A DNA stretch of 64,000 bases from Planctomycetota bacterium (lineage in GTDB: Bacteria > Planctomycetota > Planctomycetia > Pirellulales > Pirellulaceae): positions 62,001 to 126,000 of the forward strand of contig VGZC01000002.1 in NCBI GenBank assembly GCA_016872725.1, in the 5' to 3' direction. Position 1 is the stretch's first letter; each line of letters opens with the position of its first letter. Below are positions 44,401 through 55,606 of this stretch, piece by piece. Made by a program: the position numbers and the translations under genes. The notes below the pieces were generated by a model. The model was not told the DNA's origin, did not search any database, and saw only the letters and a program-made list of their open reading frames with translations.

Positions 44401-45393
44401 TCAAGGAATAATCCGTGCGCCCCGCGCGATCGCGACCAGTTCGCCGATGATCGAATCGAGCGAGCGGACCGGCTCAAAGCCGATCAGTTCGCGGAGCCTC
44501 GCGAGATCGGGCACGCGGCGCCGCACGTCCTCGAAGTCGCGGTCGTACGCGCTCGTGTAGGTCTGGAACGCGACGGTCGACCGGGACCCCGACGCCGCGA
44601 TCACGCGGAGCGCCAAGTCGTGGATCGAAACGGGCACGTCGCTCCCGATGTTCACCACCGTTCCGGCGGCGCGTGGAGCGGCCATCAGGCCGAGCACGGC
44701 GCGGATCACGTCGTCGACATGCGCGAAACACCGGATTTGCCGACCGTCGTCATGCACCATCAGAGGCCGACCCGCGACGGCCGCCTCGACGAATCGCGGC
44801 AAAACCATCCCGTACGCTCCCGTCTGTCGCGGACCGACCACGTTGAAAAAGCGGCCAACGACGACGGGAAGTTGGTACTCGCGCCAATACGCCAGCGCGA
44901 GGAACTCGTCGATCGCTTTCGACGCGCCGTAGGACCATCGCGCCCGAATCGTCGGTCCGAAGACCAGATCGTCCTCCTCGTTCCATCGTTCCTTGGGGTT
45001 CTTGCCGTACACCTCGCTCGTGCTCGCGAGGAACAGCCGGATCGTTCGGCCGCGCATCTGTTGGCGGCAGGCTTCGGCGAGCAGCCGTTCGGTCGGATAG
45101 ATGTTCCGCTCAATCGTCTGGATGGGATGCTTGGCGATGAGCGAGACTCCGACGGCGGCCGCAAGGTGGTAGACCTCGTCGACCTCGGGAAGCAGTTCCC
45201 CCAACAGGTCGGCGTTCGCGATCGTGCCCCGATGATAGGTGAATCGGTCGCATTTGCGGACTCCGTCGAGGTTCTCCGCGCGTCCGGTCGATTCATCGTC
45301 GACGACCGTGACATGATCGCCCCGCGCGAGGAGACGCTCGGTCAAGTGGGATCCGATGAAACCCGAGCCGCCCGTCACGAGAATGCGCTGCAT
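44401..45393 (-). CDS. NAD-dependent sugar epimerase/dehydratase (extended SDR)
   Basis: 330 aa. N-terminal NAD-binding ILVTGGSGFIGSHLTERLL, the active-site serine region FLASTSEVYGKNP and YGASKAIDE (Tyr-x-x-x-Lys), plus GRFFNVVGPRQTGAYGMVLP and RCFAHVDDVIRA. This is a GalE/UDP-sugar type enzyme, making precursors for envelope or exopolysaccharide sugars. The N-terminus abuts the palindromic array, and the gene is divergent from the TPR operon. Confidence 0.9.
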   Translation of the reverse strand: MQRILVTGGSGFIGSHLTERLLARGDHVTVVDDESTGRAENLDGVRKCDRFTYHRGTIANADLLGELLPEVDEVYHLAAAVGVSLIAKHPIQTIERNIYPTERLLAEACRQQMRGRTIRLFLASTSEVYGKNPKERWNEEDDLVFGPTIRARWSYGASKAIDEFLALAYWREYQLPVVVGRFFNVVGPRQTGAYGMVLPRFVEAAVAGRPLMVHDDGRQIRCFAHVDDVIRAVLGLMAAPRAAGTVVNIGSDVPVSIHDLALRVIAASGSRSTVAFQTYTSAYDRDFEDVRRRVPDLARLRELIGFEPVRSLDSIIGELVAIARGARIIP

Positions 45394-45510: not shown

Positions 45511-45951
45511 GCACGCCTCTCCGAGGCGTGTTGCGCGCCAAAGAGACCTTGTGGGGCTGGAAAACTCGCCTCGGAGAGGCGAGCGACTTGCTCCGAGGCG
45601 TGTTGCACTGGAAAAGGGGTCTTGGATTCGGGAACTCGCCTCGGAGAGGCGAGCGACTTGCTCCGAGGCGTGTTGCGCGCCTAAGAGACCTTGTGGGGCT
45701 GGAATACTCGCCTCGGAGAGGCGAGCGACTTGCTCCGAGGCGTGTTGCACTGGAAAAGGGGTCTTGGATTCGGGAACTCGCCTCGGAGAGGCGAGCGACT
45801 TGCTCCGAGGCGTGTTGCGCTGGAAAAGGGGTCTTGGATTCGGGAACTCGCCTCGGAGAGGCGAGCAACGTCGCACGCCTCTCCGAGGCGTGTTGCGCGC
45901 CAAAGAGACCTTGTGGGGCTGGAATACTCGCCTCGGAGAGGCGAGCGACTT
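45511..45951. repeat. Array of six palindromic (REP/BIME-like) units
   Basis: The 19-mer CTCGCCTCGGAGAGGCGAG (8-bp arms, GGA loop) occurs exactly six times at 45565, 45635, 45707, 45777, 45847 and 45927, at spacings of 70, 72, 70, 70 and 80. A second hairpin, CACGCCTCTCCGAGGCGTG (TCC loop), is complete at 45512 and 45874; in the other units its left arm is lost and only TCCGAGGCGTG remains. The sequence between hairpins is one of two types: A (AAAGAGACCTTGTGGGGCTGG, with one variant base) or B (GGAAAAGGGGTCTTGGATTC), in the order A B A B B A. The outer units (45508-45589 and 45870-45951) differ at one base. The array sits between divergent genes. No cas genes are near, and only two spacer types exist, so it is not a CRISPR. 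Confidence 0.9.
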
Positions 45952-46115
45952 TGACGACAAGGAACTCGGATTGGTCCCAGTGGTTCTTGTCCAGTGGGCG
46001 CGATTCGCCACAATGGAACGGTCGGCGGGGCGGGAACTCCGCGCCGTATGGCCAGGGACCGGCGAGCGAGCGTCGGTCCCTTTGCGAAACGCGAATGAAG
46101 GAGGAAGACGCGGCC

Positions 46116-49100
46116 ATGAATGCACGCCGTGGCGGAACGGTCCCGGTGGGGATCGCGTTCGGTTGTCTGGTGTTCGCCGTGACGTGGTTCCCGGGCGTCG
46201 CGCGCGGCCAGGATGCGGAAAGCCCACCCGAGGCGCTGCGTCTCTATGAAGGCGCGGTCAACGCGCAAACGGGAAGCGCGTTCGAGCTGGCCGTCGAGGA
46301 ATGGGGCAAGTTCCTCACGCAATTCCCCAAGGATCCGCTCGCCCCGAAAGCCGCCTATTACCGGGCCGTCTGCCACCTCCAGCTGCGCCAATGGGATCCG
46401 GCCATCGCCGGGTTCCAAAAAGTCATCGCCGAGCATCCGAAGTTCGAATTGCTCGAAGACGCCTTCGTCAATCTGGGCTGGTGCCAGTATTCGGCGGCCG
46501 AGGACGGCAAGAAGGAACTGCTGCCGGCGGCGGCCAAGACGTTGCGCGATCTGCTCGCCCAGTTCCCCAAAGGCAAACACCGCGACGAGGCGTGGTATTT
46601 CCTTGGCGAATCGCTTTACCAACAAGGAAACCGCAAGGAAGCGGTCGAGGCCTACGCGGCCTTGACGAGCGAGCACCCGAAGTCGCGTTATTTCGCCGAC
46701 GGACTCTATGCGCTCGGCGTCGCCCGTGAGGAACTCGAACAATTCGCCGAGGCCCTGGAGACGTACACCGCGTTTCTGACCGCGCTGCCTCAGCACGCGT
46801 TCGCGACCGAGGTATCGATGCGGAAGGCCGAGTGTTTGGTGCGGACGGGGTCGATCGAGGAGGCGGAACGGCTTTTCGCGGCATCCGCCGCCGCGCCGGA
46901 TTTCGCGGCCGCCGATCATGCGCGGATGCGGCGCGGCTATTGCCTCGACCGACTCGAACGGTTCGCCGAGGCCGCCGCGATCTATGCCGCGCTCGTCAAG
47001 GACCTTCCCGAATCGGCGATGCGGCCCGACGCGGAAATCGCGGCCGCGCGGTCGTATTACCGCGCCAAGAACGTCGACGAGGCGATGAAATGGTTCGAGA
47101 CGGCGAAGCGGCGGGGCGGCGAGGCGGCCCTCGAAGCCGCGCATTGGATGTGCCGGCTCCTCCTTCAAGCGGGCAAGGCGGCCGACGCCGAGAAACTCGC
47201 CGCCGATTCGTTGTCGGGCACGGCCGGCGGCGGCGCGTGGCTCGTCCATCTCCGTTTCGATCATGCCGACGCGCTCTACGAACAACCGGCCAAACGATCG
47301 CAGGCGCTCGTGCTCTATTTGAAGATCGCCGAGGACCATCCCGAGCACCGGATCGCGCCGCAAGCGCTCTACAACGCGGCCATCGCCGCGCTCGACGCGA
47401 AGGACTACGACCTCGCGTTGCGCCTCGGCGAACAACACCGCAAGGCCTATCCGACGGATGGGCTCGCCGCCGACGCGCGGCGCATTCTCGTCGAGAGCCT
47501 GATCCAAAAACGCGATTATGCGCGGGCGATCGACGAATTGACGAAACTCATCGCTGATTTTCCCGAGCACGCCGAGCGTCCGGCGTGGCGCGTTCGCGCG
47601 GGAATGGTCCATTACCTGCAGCGCGCCTATCCGCAGGCGATCGACCACTTGACGCCGTTGGCCGCCGAACTGGGACCGTACCCCGAACTGCTCGCCGAAT
47701 CGCAATACTGGATCGGCGCGAGCCGGTTCCAACAGGACGCGCCGGATCCGGCGATCGCCGCGCTCGAGGCGTCGCGCGCCGCGTCGGCGACGTGGAGGCA
47801 GGCGGATGAATGCCTGCTGTTGCTCGCGCGGTGCCTGCACAAACAGTCGCGGACCGACGACGCGATCGCCCTCACGCGCGAAATGATCGCGAAATACCCT
47901 CAAAGCACGGCCCTCGACCAAGCCTGGTATCGACTCGGCGATTTCCTCTACGCCGGAAAGCAGTTCGCCGAGGCGAAACAGGCGTACGCGAAGACGATCG
48001 AGTCGTACGCCGACTCGGTCTTTGTTCCGTACGCCCTGTTCGGCCGGGGCTGGGCCGAGCTTTCGGCGGGCGAGCATCCGGCGGCGATCACCGATTTCTC
48101 GGCGATCGTCACGAGCCACGCGTCGCATGAACTGGCCGACGACGCGCGGCTCGCGCTCGGCATGGCCCGCCGCCAGGCCTCGCAGCACGACAAGGCGATC
48201 GAGGACCTCAACGCGTTCGTGGCGACGAATCCGCCGCCCGCCCGCAAGTCCGAGGCGCTCTACGAACGGGGACTCGCCGAATCCGCGCTCAAGAAGGCGG
48301 GCGAGGCGGCCGCGACGTTCGCCGCGATCCTCGCCGACGATCCCACGTTCGCGAAGGCCGATGCCGCCCGATATGAACTCGCTTGGGCGTATCGAACGTC
48401 CGAACAGGACGACAAGGCGGTCGCCGAATTCGCCAAGCTCGCCGCCGAACACCCCAAAAGTCCGCTCGCCGCCGAGGCGCACTTCCATGTCGGCGAACAT
48501 CATTACAAGGCGAAAGCGTACAAAGAGGCGGCCGCGTCGTACACATCGGCGATTGCCGGCGCCAACTCGGACGAACTCAAAGAGAAATCGCTCTACAAAC
48601 TCGGCTGGTCCCGATTCCAGCTCGACGACCCCCAGGCGGCCCACGACGCGTTCGCCGAACAGGCCAAGGCGTTTCCCAACGGCACCCTCGCCGGGGATGC
48701 GGGGTTCATGAAAGGGGACTCGCTGTTCAAGGTCGGCAAGTACGCCGAGGCGCTCGCCGCGTTCCAGGAGACCCGGCAAAAAAAGCCGTCGTCCGAATCG
48801 ATGGAGATGCTCATGCTGCTGCATGCCGGACAGGCCGCCGCGCAGGTCAAGCAATGGGACGTAAGCCTCGCGTTCCTAGACGCCCTGATCACCGGATTTC
48901 CCAAGACGCCCCATCTCGCCGAAGCCCGTTTCGAGCGCGGATCGGTGCTGAGGAACCAGGAGAAGTTGGACGACGCGCTGAGGGAATTCGACGCGGCCGC
49001 GTCGGCCACGACGGTCGTCGGAGCCCGGGCCCGGTTCATGATGGGCGAGGTCCGTTTCGCGCGGAAGGAGTTTCCCGAAGCGATCCGCGAGTTCCAGCGG

Positions 49101-49340
49101 ACGATGTTCCTTTACGGCGGCGAGAACGCGCCCGCCGAGATCAAGGCGTGGCAGGCGCGGGCCGGATTCGAGGCGGGACGGTGCGCCGAAGTGCGGATCG
49201 GGTCGAGCGCGACGCCGCAGGCCAAGGCCTCGGCGATCGCGGACGCCAAGAAGTTCTATACGTTCGTCGTTGAAAAACACGCCCAGAGCGAACTTGCGGC
49301 GGAAGCCCAAAAGCGCCTCGCGGAGCTCGCCAAGCTATAA
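46116..49340 (+). CDS. Very large exported TPR protein (1074 aa)
   Basis: The signal peptide is at residues 1-32 (VGIAFGCLVFAVTWFPGVARG). From about 35 to the end the protein is TPR units, some 25 of them, for example AFELAVEEWGKFLTQFPKDP, AIAGFQKVIAEHPKFELLED, AVEAYAALTSEHPKSRYFAD and the C-terminal AIREFQRTMFLYGGENAPAE. Each resembles the YbgF/CpoB-like pattern (P-K-S at the turn). The start at 46116 has AAGGAGGAAG at 46098-46107. The same frame is open upstream through the palindromic array but without a signal. It is followed at 68 nt by the exbB-like gene. TPR proteins next to Tol/Exb genes act as periplasmic scaffolds, so a CpoB-like role is inferred. Confidence 0.9.
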   Translation: MNARRGGTVPVGIAFGCLVFAVTWFPGVARGQDAESPPEALRLYEGAVNAQTGSAFELAVEEWGKFLTQFPKDPLAPKAAYYRAVCHLQLRQWDPAIAGFQKVIAEHPKFELLEDAFVNLGWCQYSAAEDGKKELLPAAAKTLRDLLAQFPKGKHRDEAWYFLGESLYQQGNRKEAVEAYAALTSEHPKSRYFADGLYALGVAREELEQFAEALETYTAFLTALPQHAFATEVSMRKAECLVRTGSIEEAERLFAASAAAPDFAAADHARMRRGYCLDRLERFAEAAAIYAALVKDLPESAMRPDAEIAAARSYYRAKNVDEAMKWFETAKRRGGEAALEAAHWMCRLLLQAGKAADAEKLAADSLSGTAGGGAWLVHLRFDHADALYEQPAKRSQALVLYLKIAEDHPEHRIAPQALYNAAIAALDAKDYDLALRLGEQHRKAYPTDGLAADARRILVESLIQKRDYARAIDELTKLIADFPEHAERPAWRVRAGMVHYLQRAYPQAIDHLTPLAAELGPYPELLAESQYWIGASRFQQDAPDPAIAALEASRAASATWRQADECLLLLARCLHKQSRTDDAIALTREMIAKYPQSTALDQAWYRLGDFLYAGKQFAEAKQAYAKTIESYADSVFVPYALFGRGWAELSAGEHPAAITDFSAIVTSHASHELADDARLALGMARRQASQHDKAIEDLNAFVATNPPPARKSEALYERGLAESALKKAGEAAATFAAILADDPTFAKADAARYELAWAYRTSEQDDKAVAEFAKLAAEHPKSPLAAEAHFHVGEHHYKAKAYKEAAASYTSAIAGANSDELKEKSLYKLGWSRFQLDDPQAAHDAFAEQAKAFPNGTLAGDAGFMKGDSLFKVGKYAEALAAFQETRQKKPSSESMEMLMLLHAGQAAAQVKQWDVSLAFLDALITGFPKTPHLAEARFERGSVLRNQEKLDDALREFDAAASATTVVGARARFMMGEVRFARKEFPEAIREFQRTMFLYGGENAPAEIKAWQARAGFEAGRCAEVRIGSSATPQAKASAIADAKKFYTFVVEKHAQSELAAEAQKRLAELAKL

Positions 49341-49408
49341 TCCAAACGGCGGTCGCGCCGCGCGCCGCATGATCGGTCCCACCGCCCGTCGGGGGAGATT
49401 GCTCGGAC

Positions 49409-50440
49409 ATGAGAACGCTTGGGCTGCTTCTCCCTCGGGATTCCCGTTGGGCGGGCATGGTATGGATCGCCGTCTTGCTCGCCGTCGTCGGCTGGCCGAA
49501 TGTCGTGGTTCGCTCCGCGAACCACCCGCCCCGCCCATCGTTTGGACACGAATCCAACGTTGATCGCGGAGCAATCAACGACAATCACGATTCCTTGCCG
49601 AAACTCAGCCTCGTCGCCTACGCCGCTCAGACGCGGGAACCCGAAGCGCCGGACGGCGCGTTCGGCGACGGTGACGCGCCTCGAGAGGAACCCGCCGGCC
49701 CCAACCCCGATTCCGAGGGCCTCAATCTGTTCCTGCTGTTCTGGGATTCCAAATGGTGGATGCTCCCGATCGTCATCCTCTCGTTCATCGCGATCGCCGT
49801 CTCGGTCGACCGGCAAATCGCGTTGTCCACATCCCGAGTCATGCCAAAGGGGCTTCTGAGCGAGCTTGGACGACTCGGCGATGCGAAGGAAGGATTCGAT
49901 CCGCGCGAGGCGTACCGGATCTGCCAGCGTTATCCGTCGCCGGCTTCGAGTGTGATCCGCGCGATGTTGCTCAAGATCGGCCGGCCGCACAGCGAGGTCG
50001 AGCATTCGGTGAAGGAGGCGAGCGAGCGGGAGGCGCAGCGGCTGTACGGCAATGTCCGTTGGCTCAATCTGGCCGCCGGCGTCGCTCCGCTGCTCGGACT
50101 CATGGGCACGGTTTGGGGCATGATCGTTTCGTTCCATGACACGACCCAACTACTGCCCGGTCAAAACAAGGCCGAGTATTTGGCGAAAGGAATTTACCTC
50201 GCCCTCGTCACGACGCTCGGCGGATTGGCGGTGGCCATTCCCGCGACCGTCCTGTCCCATTACTTCGAGGGCCGGTTGATCACGATCTTCCATCGGATCG
50301 ACGAGCTCCTATTCAACCTCCTTCCTCAAATCGAGAAGTTCGAGGGTCGCGTGCGGTTCAGTCAAGCGGCGGGCGACAACGGAACGAATCGGGGTTCGAC
50401 CGATGCGGCGACGGGTGCGGGTCGAGCGCGAAGCGGGTGA
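49409..50440 (+). CDS. MotA/TolQ/ExbB-family proton channel protein
   Basis: 343 aa. An N-terminal signal-like hydrophobic segment is followed by a 60-residue acidic/proline linker, then the family's three membrane segments: WDSKWWMLPIVILSFIAIAV (about 110-130), WLNLAAGVAPLLGLMGTVWG (about 216-235) and IYLALVTTLGGLAVAIPATV (about 259-278), with the conserved GLMGTVWGMIxxF. The C-terminus is polar. This is the channel part of a proton-driven energy transducer; with ExbD it drives a third protein. A perfect 9-bp palindrome (49505-49525) lies in the linker coding sequence. It ends 3 nt before the ExbD gene. A TATAAT overlaps the end of the upstream gene at 49336-49341. Confidence 0.92.
   Translation: MRTLGLLLPRDSRWAGMVWIAVLLAVVGWPNVVVRSANHPPRPSFGHESNVDRGAINDNHDSLPKLSLVAYAAQTREPEAPDGAFGDGDAPREEPAGPNPDSEGLNLFLLFWDSKWWMLPIVILSFIAIAVSVDRQIALSTSRVMPKGLLSELGRLGDAKEGFDPREAYRICQRYPSPASSVIRAMLLKIGRPHSEVEHSVKEASEREAQRLYGNVRWLNLAAGVAPLLGLMGTVWGMIVSFHDTTQLLPGQNKAEYLAKGIYLALVTTLGGLAVAIPATVLSHYFEGRLITIFHRIDELLFNLLPQIEKFEGRVRFSQAAGDNGTNRGSTDAATGAGRARSG
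49505..49525 (+). repeat. Triloop palindrome inside the ExbB-like gene
   Basis: Arms GTGGTTCGC and GCGAACCAC (9 bp perfect) with a TCC loop. The same left arm and a near-identical right arm recur at 55681-55701 with a GGA loop. Confidence 0.75.
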
Positions 50441-50443
50441 ACC

Positions 50444-50851
50444 ATGGCCATCGAAATCAAGAAGGGAAACGCGCTCAGCGCGATCAACTTCACGTCGCTC
50501 ATCGACGTCGTCTTTCTATTGCTGATCTTCTTTCTCGTCGCGTCCCGGTTCGCCGAGGAGGATCGGCAGTTGGAAGTGAGGCTGCCCAACGCGAGCGAGG
50601 CGAAGCCGCTCACCGACCGGCCCCGCGAGATCATCGTGAACATCGACGACGGGGGGAACTATTTCGTCGGTGATTCGAAGATGACGCTCGATGAAGTCGA
50701 CCTCGCCCTGCGTCAGGCGACGGCGAACAACCCGGCCCATCAGACGGTCAATATCCGGGCCGACAAACGGGTCGGTTTCGAGGCGGTCGTGCTCGTGCTC
50801 AACCTCTGCAAACGCCACGCGATCGAGAACTACTCGATCGACACCCGCTAA
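50444..50851 (+). CDS. ExbD/TolR-family protein
   Basis: 135 aa. One membrane helix near the N-terminus, INFTSLIDVVFLLLIFFLVA, with the key Asp of ExbD/TolR (LIDVVF, about residue 21), followed by a periplasmic domain (EIIVNIDDGGNYFVGDSKM, then VNIRADKRVGFEAVVLVLNL). It works with ExbB to use the proton gradient. The gap to exbB is 3 nt and to the giant gene 15 nt, so they form one transcript. Confidence 0.93.
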   Translation: MAIEIKKGNALSAINFTSLIDVVFLLLIFFLVASRFAEEDRQLEVRLPNASEAKPLTDRPREIIVNIDDGGNYFVGDSKMTLDEVDLALRQATANNPAHQTVNIRADKRVGFEAVVLVLNLCKRHAIENYSIDTR

Positions 50852-50866
50852 TCATCGGCTCCCGCC

Positions 50867-53800
50867 ATGCGACGCGTCGTCCGCAAGATCGATCCGCCGT
50901 TCACGGCGACCGACGACCTGCACTGGCCGGTCGACGTCGCCCTCGTCGTGCTCGGCGCGTTCGTCATCGGCGCCGCGCTCGACTTCCAGCGATTCGACCA
51001 TCCGGTATGGCACGGAAACGCGTGGAGCACGCTGATCGGCGTTCCCCTCTTGATCGGCGGCGGCATGCTCGCGACGCGGGCGGTCAGCCGCGCGTGGCTG
51101 CGCCGGTCGATGCAGTTCGGCATGCTGGTGAGCCTGTTCGTTCATTTCGCCCTGCTGCTCGCCGCCGTCGGGCTTGTCGTTCCCGTGAACACGGCGAGTC
51201 TCGACAAGAAGGCTCGCGATCTCGTGCGGGAACGGGAGCGGCGCGCGGTGCCCGACCGCGTTCCCATTCCGATGGCCCGGCACCATTCCGAACCGTCCGA
51301 TCTGGAGCGGCCCGTCGAGACGCCGGTGCCCGAACCGAGCGAGCCGATCGAACGGGAGCGGACGGAAACGGCTCAGTCGCCCGTCGAACCGCAGCCGCAA
51401 CCGGTGATCGAGCGCGAGTCGACCGCGCGGCCCGACATCGTGAAGCGCGAGCGGGAATCGGAGTCGGCACCGCGGCGCAGCGAGATGGCTTCGCAATTGA
51501 GCCGCAGCCGGACCGAGCGCGTCATGAGACCGGAAACCACGGTTCCCGAATCGCGTTCGGCGCCGCGTCCTAGCGAGACCGCGGCGCCGCCGATCTCGCC
51601 GTCGATCGACGTCGCCAAGCGACGGCCATCGGAATCCCGATCGGCGGCGAGTCAAGAGCGGGAACAGGCCGCGCCGCCGGCGCTCGCGATGCGCGAATCG
51701 GTCCCGACCGAACCGTTGCCGCGACCCGTTCGATCGGACCAACCGATTCCGGCCGAATCGCCGATCATACTGCGCCGCGAGTCGGCGACGGCTCCGTTTG
51801 AACCATCGCTTGCCGCGGAGAACGAACCTCGACCGGCCGCCCAGCGTTCGGAAACGCCCGTCCTCGCGCCGCGCGACGCCGACGTCGCGCAACGGACGCC
51901 CGAGCCCTCTTCGCATGGTCGACGCGATTCCGAGGAGATGGGCGCGTCCCAATCGGCCGTCGATCCGGAAGTCCGGCGCAACGCGTCGGATGACCAACCG
52001 CTCGTCGCCCAATCGCCCGAACCCACACCCAATCAACTGGCGAGGCGCACGGAGCGCGTGGACCGTCTTGAGATCGCGGCGCCCCAAACCACGTCGGGCT
52101 CTCGGCGGGATTCCGACGCGCGACCCGAGATCGCCGCGGCCGATGCGCGGATGGACCGCTCGGCGTCCTCCGCGCCGACCGCCGAGCGAATGGAATCCGA
52201 ATCCGCGACGGCCCCGGCGCGGGCGATCGCCATGGAGCGCCCGTCAACGGCGTCGGCACCGGATGCTCCTTCGAACGCGGCGCCGTCACCGCCGAGCCCT
52301 CTGGTTCGAAGTTCGCTCCCACGTTCCGAAACGGCGCCCCCGATCGACGTCGCGGCGGCGGCGGAGCGGACCGAACCGAGTGCTTCGCCGGTCGAGGACG
52401 CCGGGGGCGCGCGGCCGACCGACGCACCGATCGCAAGGCAGGCCGCGACGAGCGCCGCCCCGACACCGCGACAGCCGCTCGACGAGCCGCGGTCGACCTC
52501 TCGCGATCAGGTGGCGAATACCGTCTCGCGCCGGACGATCGTTTCGGAGGAAGCCACCACCATGCCGTTGGAGCGACCGACGCCGCGCCCCGCGCGATCG
52601 GTGACGAACGAAACGCTCCAGACGACGGTGAAGATGGACCATCCCGCGGCCCGCGTCGTCGTCGAGCCGTCACCGGGCAGCGCGCAGCCGTCGTCCATCG
52701 CGGTTTCCAAAGGCACGACGGGAACGGCCGGATCCGGATACTCGACCAACGTCGATCGCCGAGCTCCCTCGGGCGAAAGTCCTTCGCTGGTCGCATCGGG
52801 TTCGAGTCGCGACCGAGCGACGCAACGAACAGCCGAAGGCCCGGCGCTCAGTCCGGCCGAGTCGGCGACGGTCCCGCGATCGCGGGCCGATCACGACTCG
52901 CCGCTCGCCGCCGCACCCGTTCCTCAAACGACCTCCGCGCCGGGCGCGCCGCCCGAAACGTCGGGGAGACCGCATTCGGCGAGCGCGGCGACCATCGAGA
53001 TGCGCGCTCGGTCGGAGAGCGGCGCGGTCACGGCCGACCGGGGTGACGCGCCGGTCGATATCGGGCCTCAACGGATCGTGGCCCAATTCCAATCGGGTCC
53101 GGCGTCCGGAGGCGGGCAACCCGAACCGACGTTGTCCGCGGCGCCGAACCCGGCACGAACCTCTCGAGGCGGCGCGACGCAACAGGCTCTCGACGTCGAT
53201 ACGACGGCCATGCAGGTCCGCGCTCCGGACGGCGATGGCGGCGCGCGGCCGCTCGCGATCGACGCCCAGCCGACGGCGGTCGCGGCGAAGCGGACCGATC
53301 GGGGAGGCGAAACGGCATCGAGCGGCGGGCCCGCGAGCTCGCTTGTCGAAGGACGTGCGTCCGAATCCAACGCGGCCGATGCGCACGGCGCGCTGGCCTT
53401 GCGCCGCGCCCCGGCCGACTCGAATGACGCGCTCGGAGCCCTGCAACCGAATACCGATACGGCGGCTGCGCCGTCCGGAACGGGGGCCTCCGAGCCCGCA
53501 CCGCGTCGTGCGGCATCCGCGCCGCCGACCGCGACGGCCGGTCGGCCCACGCCGATCGGCACAGGTCGACGCGATTCGGAGTCGGCGGTGGCCGACCCGC
53601 AAGGCGCGGAGCGCGGCTCGCCCCCGCCGTCCGCGTCGGCGACCGACGTGGCGCGCCGCGATCCCGCCGAACTTCCGTCGGAAGGTCGCGCCGCGCACGC
53701 GAACGCGATTGATGAAGTCGGTCCTTCCAGCCCGCCGACCTCGACCGCTTCGAACGAGCGCCGCGCGGAACCGGCCGACGGACCCGCTGGACCACCGCTC

Positions 53801-55606
53801 GTCGGCGGAGGCCCGCGGGAAACGACTCGCATCGCTCGAGCCCCGCGATTGGGCGACGACGCGTTCGGCAATCCGACCGCCGAGTCGCCCGTATTGAATG
53901 CGATGCGCGCGGAAGGCGCCTCGGCCGCTCCCGTCGCGAGCGGCGTGGAAATGCGCAAACGGGAAGGCGGCATCAGTGCGGGTCTCGATTCGGCCGCCGA
54001 GACCACGGCCGACCAGCCATCGCTCGACGTCACGCGCGCCGCCATTCGGCCCCGCGCCGGCCGATCGACGGAAGACGAAGGTCCGTCGACCGCATCGGCG
54101 ACGTCCGCCATTGCCCGAGGTCGAACCCGATCGGGACCCATGCTCGCCAATCCATCGATCGATGACGGCGGTCCGTCGGCGCGCATGGCGCGGCGCGCGC
54201 CGCCCGAATCCCGCACACCGTCGGACGCGGATGGCGCATCGGCGAGCGAGACGCCCGTCGCGATCGGCCCGACGCGACGCGAGTCGCCGTCGAGCCGTCC
54301 GGTCGATATCGACGCCGAGCCTGGACCGGGCGGACTTGCGGCGACACCGACACCGGACGCGGGCATCGAGGATCGCCGGGCAAGCCGAGAGACCGAAAAC
54401 GTGCAGTTCCGCATGGTCCGCATTCCGCGCCGCGACTTGGGTGGTCGGCCGGACGTGAACACCGCGCCGGTGATCGCGGCCGAGGCGTTCCGGCGGCGAT
54501 CGGACCGGAACCGAGGACCATCCGGCGGCGATCGGCTCGGACCCGAAACCGAACAAGCGATCGAGGCCGGGCTCGCGTTCCTCGCGCGGTCGCAGCGCGA
54601 GGATGGAAGATGGACCTTCGAGGGCTTCGATGACGAGCAACCCGGCATGCGGTCCGACGCGGCCGCCACCGCGCTCGCCCTGCTCGCGTTTCAAGGCGCG
54701 GGGTACACGCATCGCGAACACCGGTACGCGTCGAATGTCCGCTCGGGGCTCGACTTCCTGATCGCGAACCAGGAACGCGACGGATCGGTTTTTGTGAACG
54801 CCGACGAGGAATCGAATCGATTCGCGAGGCTCTATACGCAAGGCATCGCCGCGCTCGCGCTGTGCGAGGCCTACGGGATGACGCGCGACCCGGCGCTCGC
54901 AGGCCCCGCGCAGCGAGCCATCGACCAGATCGTCGCGTCCCAGAATGGCCAACTCGGCGGATGGAGATACGCGCCGCAAGTCAGCAGCGACACATCGGTC
55001 ACCGGCTGGATGATGATGGCCCTCAAGAGCGGCGAACTGGCCGGGCTGCGCGTGCCGGTCGAGGCGTATGAAGGCGTCGCCCGCTGGCTCGACCGCGCTC
55101 AGGCATCGCCCGCCGAGTCACACCTCTATCGCTACAACCCCGACGCGCCCGACACGGCGGAACAATCGCACGGCCGCCGGGCGTCGCCCAGCATGACCGC
55201 CGTCGGACTCCTGCTCCGGCTGTATCTCGGCTGGAATCGCGATCACGAGGCGGTCCGACGCGGTGCCGATTACTTCCGCGCGAATCTGCCCGCGCAGGGC
55301 GAACCCACCGATACGATCCTGTCCCGGCGCCGGGACACCTACTATTGGTACTACGCGACCCAGGTCATGTTCCACGTCGGAGGCGACGCCTGGAAGGAAT
55401 GGAACGCGAGGCTCCACCCGATGCTCGCGCGCACGCAGATCGCGGATGGACGCCATGCGGGGAGTTGGGATCCCTTCCTGCCCGTGGCCGATCGATGGGC
55501 CGGCCAAGCCGGACGACTCTACGTCACCACGCTCAACCTGCTCTCCCTCGAAGTCCATTACCGCCACCTTCCGCTCTACAAGGAAGAAGGCCGCGCGAGC
55601 CCGTGA
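50867..55606 (+). CDS. Giant TonB/TolA-positioned protein with C-terminal prenyltransferase-like toroid (1579 aa)
   Basis: Residues 1-110 hold three hydrophobic segments (ALVVLGAFVIGAALDFQRF, LIGVPLLIGGGMLATRAV, MQFGMLVSLFVHFALLLAAV). Residues about 115-1215 are low-complexity Arg/Glu/Ser/Pro/Ala-rich sequence with RR/RE and PxEP-like patterns, so it is probably extended and periplasmic. Residues about 1220-1579 form a domain with squalene-cyclase/prenyltransferase-type repeats: GLAFLARSQREDGRWTFEGF (QxxxGxW), FLIANQERDGSVFVN, IVASQNGQLGGWRYAP. The DxDD catalytic motif is not seen. Its place after ExbB/ExbD corresponds to TonB or TolA, which also have an anchor, a long linker and a C-terminal domain. 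The cargo is unknown. Probably not an active terpene cyclase. A hairpin follows at 55627. Confidence 0.88.
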   Translation: MRRVVRKIDPPFTATDDLHWPVDVALVVLGAFVIGAALDFQRFDHPVWHGNAWSTLIGVPLLIGGGMLATRAVSRAWLRRSMQFGMLVSLFVHFALLLAAVGLVVPVNTASLDKKARDLVRERERRAVPDRVPIPMARHHSEPSDLERPVETPVPEPSEPIERERTETAQSPVEPQPQPVIERESTARPDIVKRERESESAPRRSEMASQLSRSRTERVMRPETTVPESRSAPRPSETAAPPISPSIDVAKRRPSESRSAASQEREQAAPPALAMRESVPTEPLPRPVRSDQPIPAESPIILRRESATAPFEPSLAAENEPRPAAQRSETPVLAPRDADVAQRTPEPSSHGRRDSEEMGASQSAVDPEVRRNASDDQPLVAQSPEPTPNQLARRTERVDRLEIAAPQTTSGSRRDSDARPEIAAADARMDRSASSAPTAERMESESATAPARAIAMERPSTASAPDAPSNAAPSPPSPLVRSSLPRSETAPPIDVAAAAERTEPSASPVEDAGGARPTDAPIARQAATSAAPTPRQPLDEPRSTSRDQVANTVSRRTIVSEEATTMPLERPTPRPARSVTNETLQTTVKMDHPAARVVVEPSPGSAQPSSIAVSKGTTGTAGSGYSTNVDRRAPSGESPSLVASGSSRDRATQRTAEGPALSPAESATVPRSRADHDSPLAAAPVPQTTSAPGAPPETSGRPHSASAATIEMRARSESGAVTADRGDAPVDIGPQRIVAQFQSGPASGGGQPEPTLSAAPNPARTSRGGATQQALDVDTTAMQVRAPDGDGGARPLAIDAQPTAVAAKRTDRGGETASSGGPASSLVEGRASESNAADAHGALALRRAPADSNDALGALQPNTDTAAAPSGTGASEPAPRRAASAPPTATAGRPTPIGTGRRDSESAVADPQGAERGSPPPSASATDVARRDPAELPSEGRAAHANAIDEVGPSSPPTSTASNERRAEPADGPAGPPLVGGGPRETTRIARAPRLGDDAFGNPTAESPVLNAMRAEGASAAPVASGVEMRKREGGISAGLDSAAETTADQPSLDVTRAAIRPRAGRSTEDEGPSTASATSAIARGRTRSGPMLANPSIDDGGPSARMARRAPPESRTPSDADGASASETPVAIGPTRRESPSSRPVDIDAEPGPGGLAATPTPDAGIEDRRASRETENVQFRMVRIPRRDLGGRPDVNTAPVIAAEAFRRRSDRNRGPSGGDRLGPETEQAIEAGLAFLARSQREDGRWTFEGFDDEQPGMRSDAAATALALLAFQGAGYTHREHRYASNVRSGLDFLIANQERDGSVFVNADEESNRFARLYTQGIAALALCEAYGMTRDPALAGPAQRAIDQIVASQNGQLGGWRYAPQVSSDTSVTGWMMMALKSGELAGLRVPVEAYEGVARWLDRAQASPAESHLYRYNPDAPDTAEQSHGRRASPSMTAVGLLLRLYLGWNRDHEAVRRGADYFRANLPAQGEPTDTILSRRRDTYYWYYATQVMFHVGGDAWKEWNARLHPMLARTQIADGRHAGSWDPFLPVADRWAGQAGRLYVTTLNLLSLEVHYRHLPLYKEEGRASP

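Follow-up and report, generated by a model that had tools for sequence, protein, structure and literature searches.

The four genes between positions 46116 and 55606 of a 64,000-nt stretch of DNA (hereafter the window; positions 62001-126000 of contig C2 in the 5.24-Mb genome of a Planctomycetota bacterium of the family Pirellulaceae) probably encode a puller that is driven by the proton motive force and reaches across the periplasm in the manner of TonB or TolA, with an alpha/alpha toroid as its head. All four lie on the plus strand in the order TPR protein, ExbB, ExbD and giant transducer, with intergenic gaps of 68, 3 and 15 nt. This layout had been described in an initial annotation made from the sequence, and all of its coordinates, lengths and gaps were reproduced, giving the following features:

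46116..49340, plus strand: exported TPR protein, 1074 aa (ATG 46116 to TAA 49340)
49409..50440, plus strand: ExbB/TolQ-type proton-channel subunit, 343 aa (ATG to TGA; Pfam MotA_ExbB, E 8e-24)
50444..50851, plus strand: ExbD/TolR-type subunit, 135 aa (ATG to TAA; Pfam ExbD, E 2e-26)
50867..55606, plus strand: giant transducer, 1579 aa, consisting of a three-TM anchor, a linker and a toroid (ATG to TGA)
50867..51202, plus strand: three-TM anchor, giant aa 1-112 (from sequence)
51131..51145, plus strand: S89-x3-H93 in TM3 of the giant, the core of the TonB/TolA SHLS motor-binding motif (from sequence)
51203..54466, plus strand: low-complexity linker, giant aa 113-1200, 1,088 residues (from composition)
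54467..55603, plus strand: C-terminal alpha/alpha toroid, giant aa 1201-1579 (from AlphaFold2 and fold comparison)

Pfam and NCBIfam assign the first three genes to the TPR, MotA/TolQ/ExbB and ExbD/TolR families, respectively, and the TPR gene has an alternative in-frame ATG 21 nt upstream of the one listed. The membrane segments, long linker and C-terminal toroid foreseen for the giant were all recovered, as three TM segments, 1,088 residues and an AlphaFold2 toroid, and the statement that the operon includes no TonB-dependent receptor, TolB or Pal also held for the ORFs around it, which were read by eye. The arrangement is far beyond chance, recurring in many genomes with genes 26-75% identical over their best segments, and in view of its orthologues in many genomes a chance open frame or an assembly artefact was set aside as an origin of the giant. 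Genes downstream of 55606 were considered as members of the system and rejected, since no more than 4 to 7 of 44 orthologous loci contain homologues of those frames. On the other side, a sugar-nucleotide epimerase gene adjoins the operon (window 44401-45393, minus strand), with homologues in 14 of the 44 loci, and by eye it also lies beside the TPR-ExbB half of a split operon in locus L241. Four overlapping copies of a 142-nt direct repeat, 61-100% alike, occupy window 45519-46022 just upstream of the operon; this repeat has 84 matches genome-wide, often in arrays, and creates repeated spurious ORFs in several frames.

The ExbB protein scores 84.2 bits against PF01618 (cut-off 22.9), a model with nine matches in this genome, and keeps counterparts of E. 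coli ExbB Thr148 and Thr181, which line the pore, and of Pro190, the AIPA proline. Ser125 corresponds to Ser34 of E. coli TM1, which touches His20 of TonB, and is present in at least 97% of 53 ExbBs; the absence of counterparts of E. coli Trp38 (TM1) and Glu176 (TM3) from the window protein counts against the comparison. The transmembrane aspartate of ExbD is Asp21 (50504-50506), and at least 97% of the 66 family members compared retain it. Upstream of this pair, the TPR protein begins with a signal peptide and continues from aa 38 to 1073 as one all-helix alpha-solenoid, which AlphaFold2 models as an unbroken helical solenoid (pLDDT 90.0, pTM 0.50), the overall curve being uncertain because of the low pTM. 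It scores as YbgF/CpoB-like over many repeats, and its 39 orthologues are 29-46% identical.

The proposed link between this motor and the giant lies in the membrane anchor, whose TM segments start near aa 22, 55 and 87, the third of them reading SLFVH at 89-93. According to the part of PMC12215075 that treats the motif, Ser-x3-His is the conserved core by which TonB binds ExbB and TolA binds TolQ, and in E. coli Ser16 and His20 of TonB touch Ser34 and Trp38 of ExbB; our comparison was also made against the E. coli sequences. By the positive-inside rule the N-terminus of the giant would lie inside, and since arginines precede TM3, the linker and toroid are suggested to be periplasmic. Within the genome, Ser-x3-His occurs in a TM segment of all six anchored toroid proteins, whereas other genes, read over 16 stretches, have it in only 1 of 177 TM segments (2 of 177 if Asn is also allowed at the last position), giving a Fisher probability of 1.5e-10 for paralogues that are not independent and TM thresholds that differed (1.3 against 1.6). 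The sole control protein with the motif sits two genes from an ExbB.

Among the orthologues of the giant, the last position is His in 32 of 40 aligned rows, Asn in six and Tyr in one, with one misaligned row that reads SLLVH, whereas the first is looser (Ser 26, Cys 6, Gly 4, Ala 3). A second set of 72 loci gives His 61, Asn 9 and Tyr 1, with one not seen, when 64 are counted by script and 7 by eye; another parse reads 68 of them as His 62 and Asn 6. Asn is reportedly able to replace the TonB His, a result ascribed to Postle's group, and the Tyr found in L084 and in one locus of the second set counts against the motif. In 41 further toroid proteins (5 from this genome, 36 from others), the best TM segment carries Ser-x3-His in 38, Ser-x3-Asn in two and Ala-x3-His in one, and 18 of another 22 toroid frames carry Ser-x3-His, the scripts being not blind to the motif in that they choose the best hydrophobic segment holding S/C/G/A/T-x3-H/N. 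Two of the remaining four frames are cut by contig ends; L219, which has no such TM segment, and L213, with an unconvincing A-x3-N, count against it. The full SHLS pattern (Ser-x3-His-x6-Leu-x3-Ser) was not found, only the Ser and His positions being kept; column +11 in the giant orthologues reads Ala 10, Leu 9 and Ser 7 of 39, with Ala in the window giant, and the same part of PMC12215075 describes the Leu-Ser half as less conserved in Ton proteins too. A D-box-like alternating strand follows the TM segment in 24 of 34 non-giant toroid proteins (10.7 expected from shuffles, none of 500 reaching the observed number), whereas in the giants, where it was expected, it is not enriched (23 of 72 against 25.9 in shuffles), which counts against the parallel. 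The placing of the giant in the TonB/TolA slot, as first proposed, is nonetheless supported by the Ser-x3-His in TM3 and by the conserved ExbB/ExbD neighbourhood.

Behind the anchor, the linker is rich in Ala (16.6%), Pro (13.2%), Arg (11.6%) and Ser (11.5%) and is very variable in length among orthologues, from about 400 to 1,800 residues, while the orthologous open frames measure 842-2337 aa; no clear repeat emerged from a search for recurring motifs, which yielded only islands, GGGQ (29 of 72) among them. The only Pfam match of the giant is SQHop_cyclase_C at its C-terminus, at 22.4 bits below the cut-off of 26.1, rising to 28.7 bits for the toroid domain alone, and 56 of 58 aligned toroid domains match the same model at E 0.01 or better. 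From an alignment of these 58 C-terminal domains, AlphaFold2 predicts for the 400-aa toroid a ring of paired helices with pLDDT 90.9 and pTM 0.90, so that the alpha/alpha toroid read from the sequence was borne out by structure prediction. The nearest solved folds are squalene-hopene cyclase and other class II terpene cyclases (Foldseek E 1.8e-8); superposition on 2sqc aligns 297 residues (VIA Z 26.4, rmsd 3.8, 16% identity), and sugar epimerases come next with Z about 23. That the giant is itself a class II terpene cyclase was rejected, since only two of 58 toroids contain D-x-D-D, each at a different place, and that of the window does not.

The initial annotation proposed a search for the same four-gene neighbourhood in other planctomycetes, and this neighbourhood was found. 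All 60 genomes searched, that of the window included, have toroids, and in 45 of them the giant has a clear orthologue, scoring at least 350 bits against 305 for the next match. Leaving out the window itself, 44 such loci remain; the N-terminus of the giant is missing from 5 and 6 kb of upstream sequence from 4 more, and in 31 of the remaining 35 all four genes are adjacent. A second, overlapping set of 80 loci came from one toroid-profile scan; after 8 and then 18 were dropped on the same two grounds, 41 of the 54 with 6 kb upstream have all four genes together, while ExbB and ExbD are found in 52 of 66 loci with 2.5 kb upstream and ExbD in 63 of 68 with 1 kb. The 4 and 13 loci that depart from the pattern count against a fixed operon. 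Species with the full operon include Rhodopirellula baltica and Stieleria tagensis, both culturable, and it is also present in Rubripirellula obstinata and Neorhodopirellula pilleata. When the TPR neighbour of the giant is missing, a full-length TPR orthologue lies elsewhere in 6 of 7 genomes checked, the exception being the genome of L184, which has no TPR match; the relocated gene is accompanied by ExbB-ExbD in G033 and G041 and by ExbB in Blastopirellula marina, and no ExbB was detected in about 1.5 kb after it in G010, G450 and G451; these last three and the genome of L184 weigh against the reading. In G018, outside these seven, the operon is split into TPR-ExbB and ExbD-giant, which lie apart. 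Parts that are rearranged and yet retained together argue for one machine, and conserved operon and co-retention alike support the earlier view of the TPR protein as a stable partner.

Toroids occur in 320 of 392 Planctomycetota genomes drawn, and the arrangement TPR-ExbB-ExbD-toroid extends to three loci outside the taxonomic order (L209, L210 and L211). The TPR profile matches 39 of 294 genomes at E 1e-60, and of 20 loci found with it, 11 have TPR-ExbB-ExbD-toroid in order, three are cut by contig ends, three have TPR-ExbB only and one TPR only. The other two carry a different protein after the TPR gene: in L259 (5986-8931, minus strand) a PD40 propeller protein with a carboxypeptidase-regulatory domain, and in L253 (4805-9853, minus strand) a vWA protein with no ExbB/ExbD between, suggesting from gene content that the heads may be exchangeable. 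In many related transducers a long insert separates TM1 from TM2, ahead of the last two TM segments, and in the three toroid proteins scanned with Pfam (L104, L210 and L256) this insert is a PD40 propeller; the window giant has no propeller insert and a longer linker. ExbB-ExbD-toroid operons with a long insert were seen in 17 loci (L089, L104, L105, L106, L107, L109, L210, L211, L243, L244, L246, L248, L249, L254, L256, L258 and L260), all of which include a TPR gene except L106, which is cut by a contig end. The propeller form may be ancestral because of its wider spread, as judged from distribution and not from a tree.

In the genome of the window there are eleven toroid matches. Ten toroid proteins lie in the stretches examined. 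Six of them are anchored and carry Ser-x3-His; the other four, in L024-L027, are more remote relatives that lack it, and two of these begin with what resembles a signal peptide. For four of the six anchored proteins, the stretches of 14-17 kb that were read contain no ExbB/ExbD (L022, 3209-6514; L020, 7293-9002; L021, 7543-8886; two of the four in tandem), and these four would have to share a motor in trans. Many toroid paralogues lack an adjacent motor, which counts against a strict coupling of the two. The initial annotation had named as fatal to its reading a usual absence of ExbB/ExbD beside homologues of the giant and TPR proteins, which is not what these homologues show, whereas the wider toroid family is often found without a motor. 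A second motor operon, L023 (contig C12, 7333-10667, minus strand), encodes ExbB, ExbD and a toroid transducer of 662 aa with SLVAH in a TM segment; none of its neighbours resembles the window TPR protein, and a divergent 424-aa gene lies alongside. L031 (contig C29, 4186-10677, minus strand) encodes a 341-aa protein with SALLH in a TM segment, then TPR, ExbB, two ExbDs and finally an 837-aa protein without a Pfam match, a layout that resembles published vWA transducers.

In the mechanism that we propose, ExbB, presumably pentameric, and ExbD, presumably dimeric, would form the motor, with protons passing by way of ExbD Asp21 and the ExbB threonines. TM3 of the giant would dock on the outside of ExbB through Ser89 and His93, and ExbD would take up the juxtamembrane stretch of the giant, whose long disordered linker may span the envelope and carry tension. 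The toroid, standing in for the TonB or TolA head, would grip a partner at the wall or outer membrane, and the exported TPR solenoid could serve as a dedicated adaptor or dock. Our best guess, by analogy, is that the purpose is Tol-like maintenance of the envelope rather than uptake through a single receptor, because a TolB-type PD40 propeller shares the polypeptide in related operons, the TPR protein scores as YbgF/CpoB-like, no receptor is encoded in the operon and TolB_N has no match in the genome.

Ton-type ExbBD motors open outer-membrane channels, and the toroid may likewise open such a channel for large polymers, as TonB does. The presence of six anchored toroid transducers in a single genome would be in keeping with a wide range of substrates; we nevertheless consider a transport system rather unlikely, since the operon has no outer-membrane receptor, a single plug domain was found in the genome and the giant has no TonB_C match.

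A tethered envelope enzyme that the motor moves or positions, acting for example on polysaccharides (as a lyase or hydrolase) or on prenyl lipids, is less probable still. In its favour, a comparison of 65 toroids from every class shows 42 positions conserved in 90% of them or more; many of these positions are aromatic or charged, among them W1366-R1367-Y1368, D1375, Y1492 to Y1496 and R1550, a pattern that would fit a common ligand or active site. The profile of pectic acid lyase matches 48 of 58 members and that of GH88 matches 25, and the structural neighbours include sugar epimerases and GH76, which leans the same way. However, matches between toroid families would be expected from shared repeats, the DxDD of the nearest fold family is not conserved, and the catalytic set of a known family is not demonstrated. 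Quite improbable is co-location without coupling, in which the motor would serve the TPR protein or an ordinary TonB and the giant would be an unrelated membrane-anchored protein: the genome does hold a canonical TonB_C protein and one plug-domain receptor, and an adjacent motor is missing for many toroid proteins, but the Ser-x3-His motif, the conserved operon and the co-retention of its parts all speak against it.

Beyond the toroid-headed puller of the window, a broader reading can be offered tentatively, at somewhat less than an even chance. It would see a phylum-wide machine of Planctomycetota with an ExbBD motor, a TPR solenoid and a three-TM transducer whose toroid binds a ligand, ancestrally with a built-in TolB-like propeller, and with orphan toroids sharing motors in trans; one conserved cleft would grip a common envelope ligand, and the machine would do the work of Tol-Pal and much of that of Ton. 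Already with the puller of the window, proteins that match squalene-cyclase-type models only become candidate power strokes of the planctomycete envelope, whose periplasm is wide, folded and poorly understood, and a further kind of head is added to those on which motors of the ExbBD type may pull. The single His/Asn position offers a direct mutational test.

The operon shares features with several known systems. It resembles TonB-ExbB-ExbD of E. coli in its ExbB/ExbD motor, Ser-x3-His TM segment, Pro-rich linker and C-terminal head, and differs in that the giant has no TonB_C head, three TM segments and a far longer linker, and in having a TPR partner, no receptor gene and an ExbB without counterparts of Trp38 and Glu176. 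With Tol-Pal (TolQRA-TolB-Pal-CpoB) it has in common a motor, a transducer and a TPR protein, and the PD40 propeller of related operons recalls TolB; unlike Tol-Pal it includes no Pal and no TolA head, and its genome, in which two OmpA-family domains lie elsewhere, gave no TolB_N match. An identity of the giant with TonB or TolA proper was rejected, since Pfam finds no such head. Class II terpene cyclases are closest in the fold of the head and differ from it in their DxDD, which is not conserved here, and in the motor-type anchor to which the toroid is attached.

The nearest parallel is given by vWA-headed transducers with TPR, tolQ-like and tolR-like genes, published in 2025 and found in Planctomycetes among others (PMC12204202). 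As far as the section of that paper on the vWA class describes them, both systems have a TPR gene upstream, a TolQ/TolR-type motor, an SHLS-type TM segment, a disordered linker and a globular head other than that of TonB (PMC12204202). Their head is a vWA domain, of which Pfam finds no match in the giant, in contrast to the alpha/alpha toroid here; they have a tolR pair against one ExbD, and a single TM helix with a domain II of some 100 residues against three TM segments and a linker of about 400-1,800. The PD40 propeller of operons related to that of the window further sets these apart, and toroid head, three-TM anchor, giant linker and built-in propeller are all absent from that section (PMC12204202). 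The premise of the initial annotation that the protein driven by ExbB and ExbD is always TonB or TolA is thus too narrow, and its suggestion of a new machine stands in part: no description of a toroid-headed transducer appeared among the matches listed from the openly licensed literature, whereas a transducer with a foreign head and a TPR partner had already been published (PMC12204202). Given these vWA transducers, the toroid operon is best regarded as a new class of a known principle and not as a new principle.
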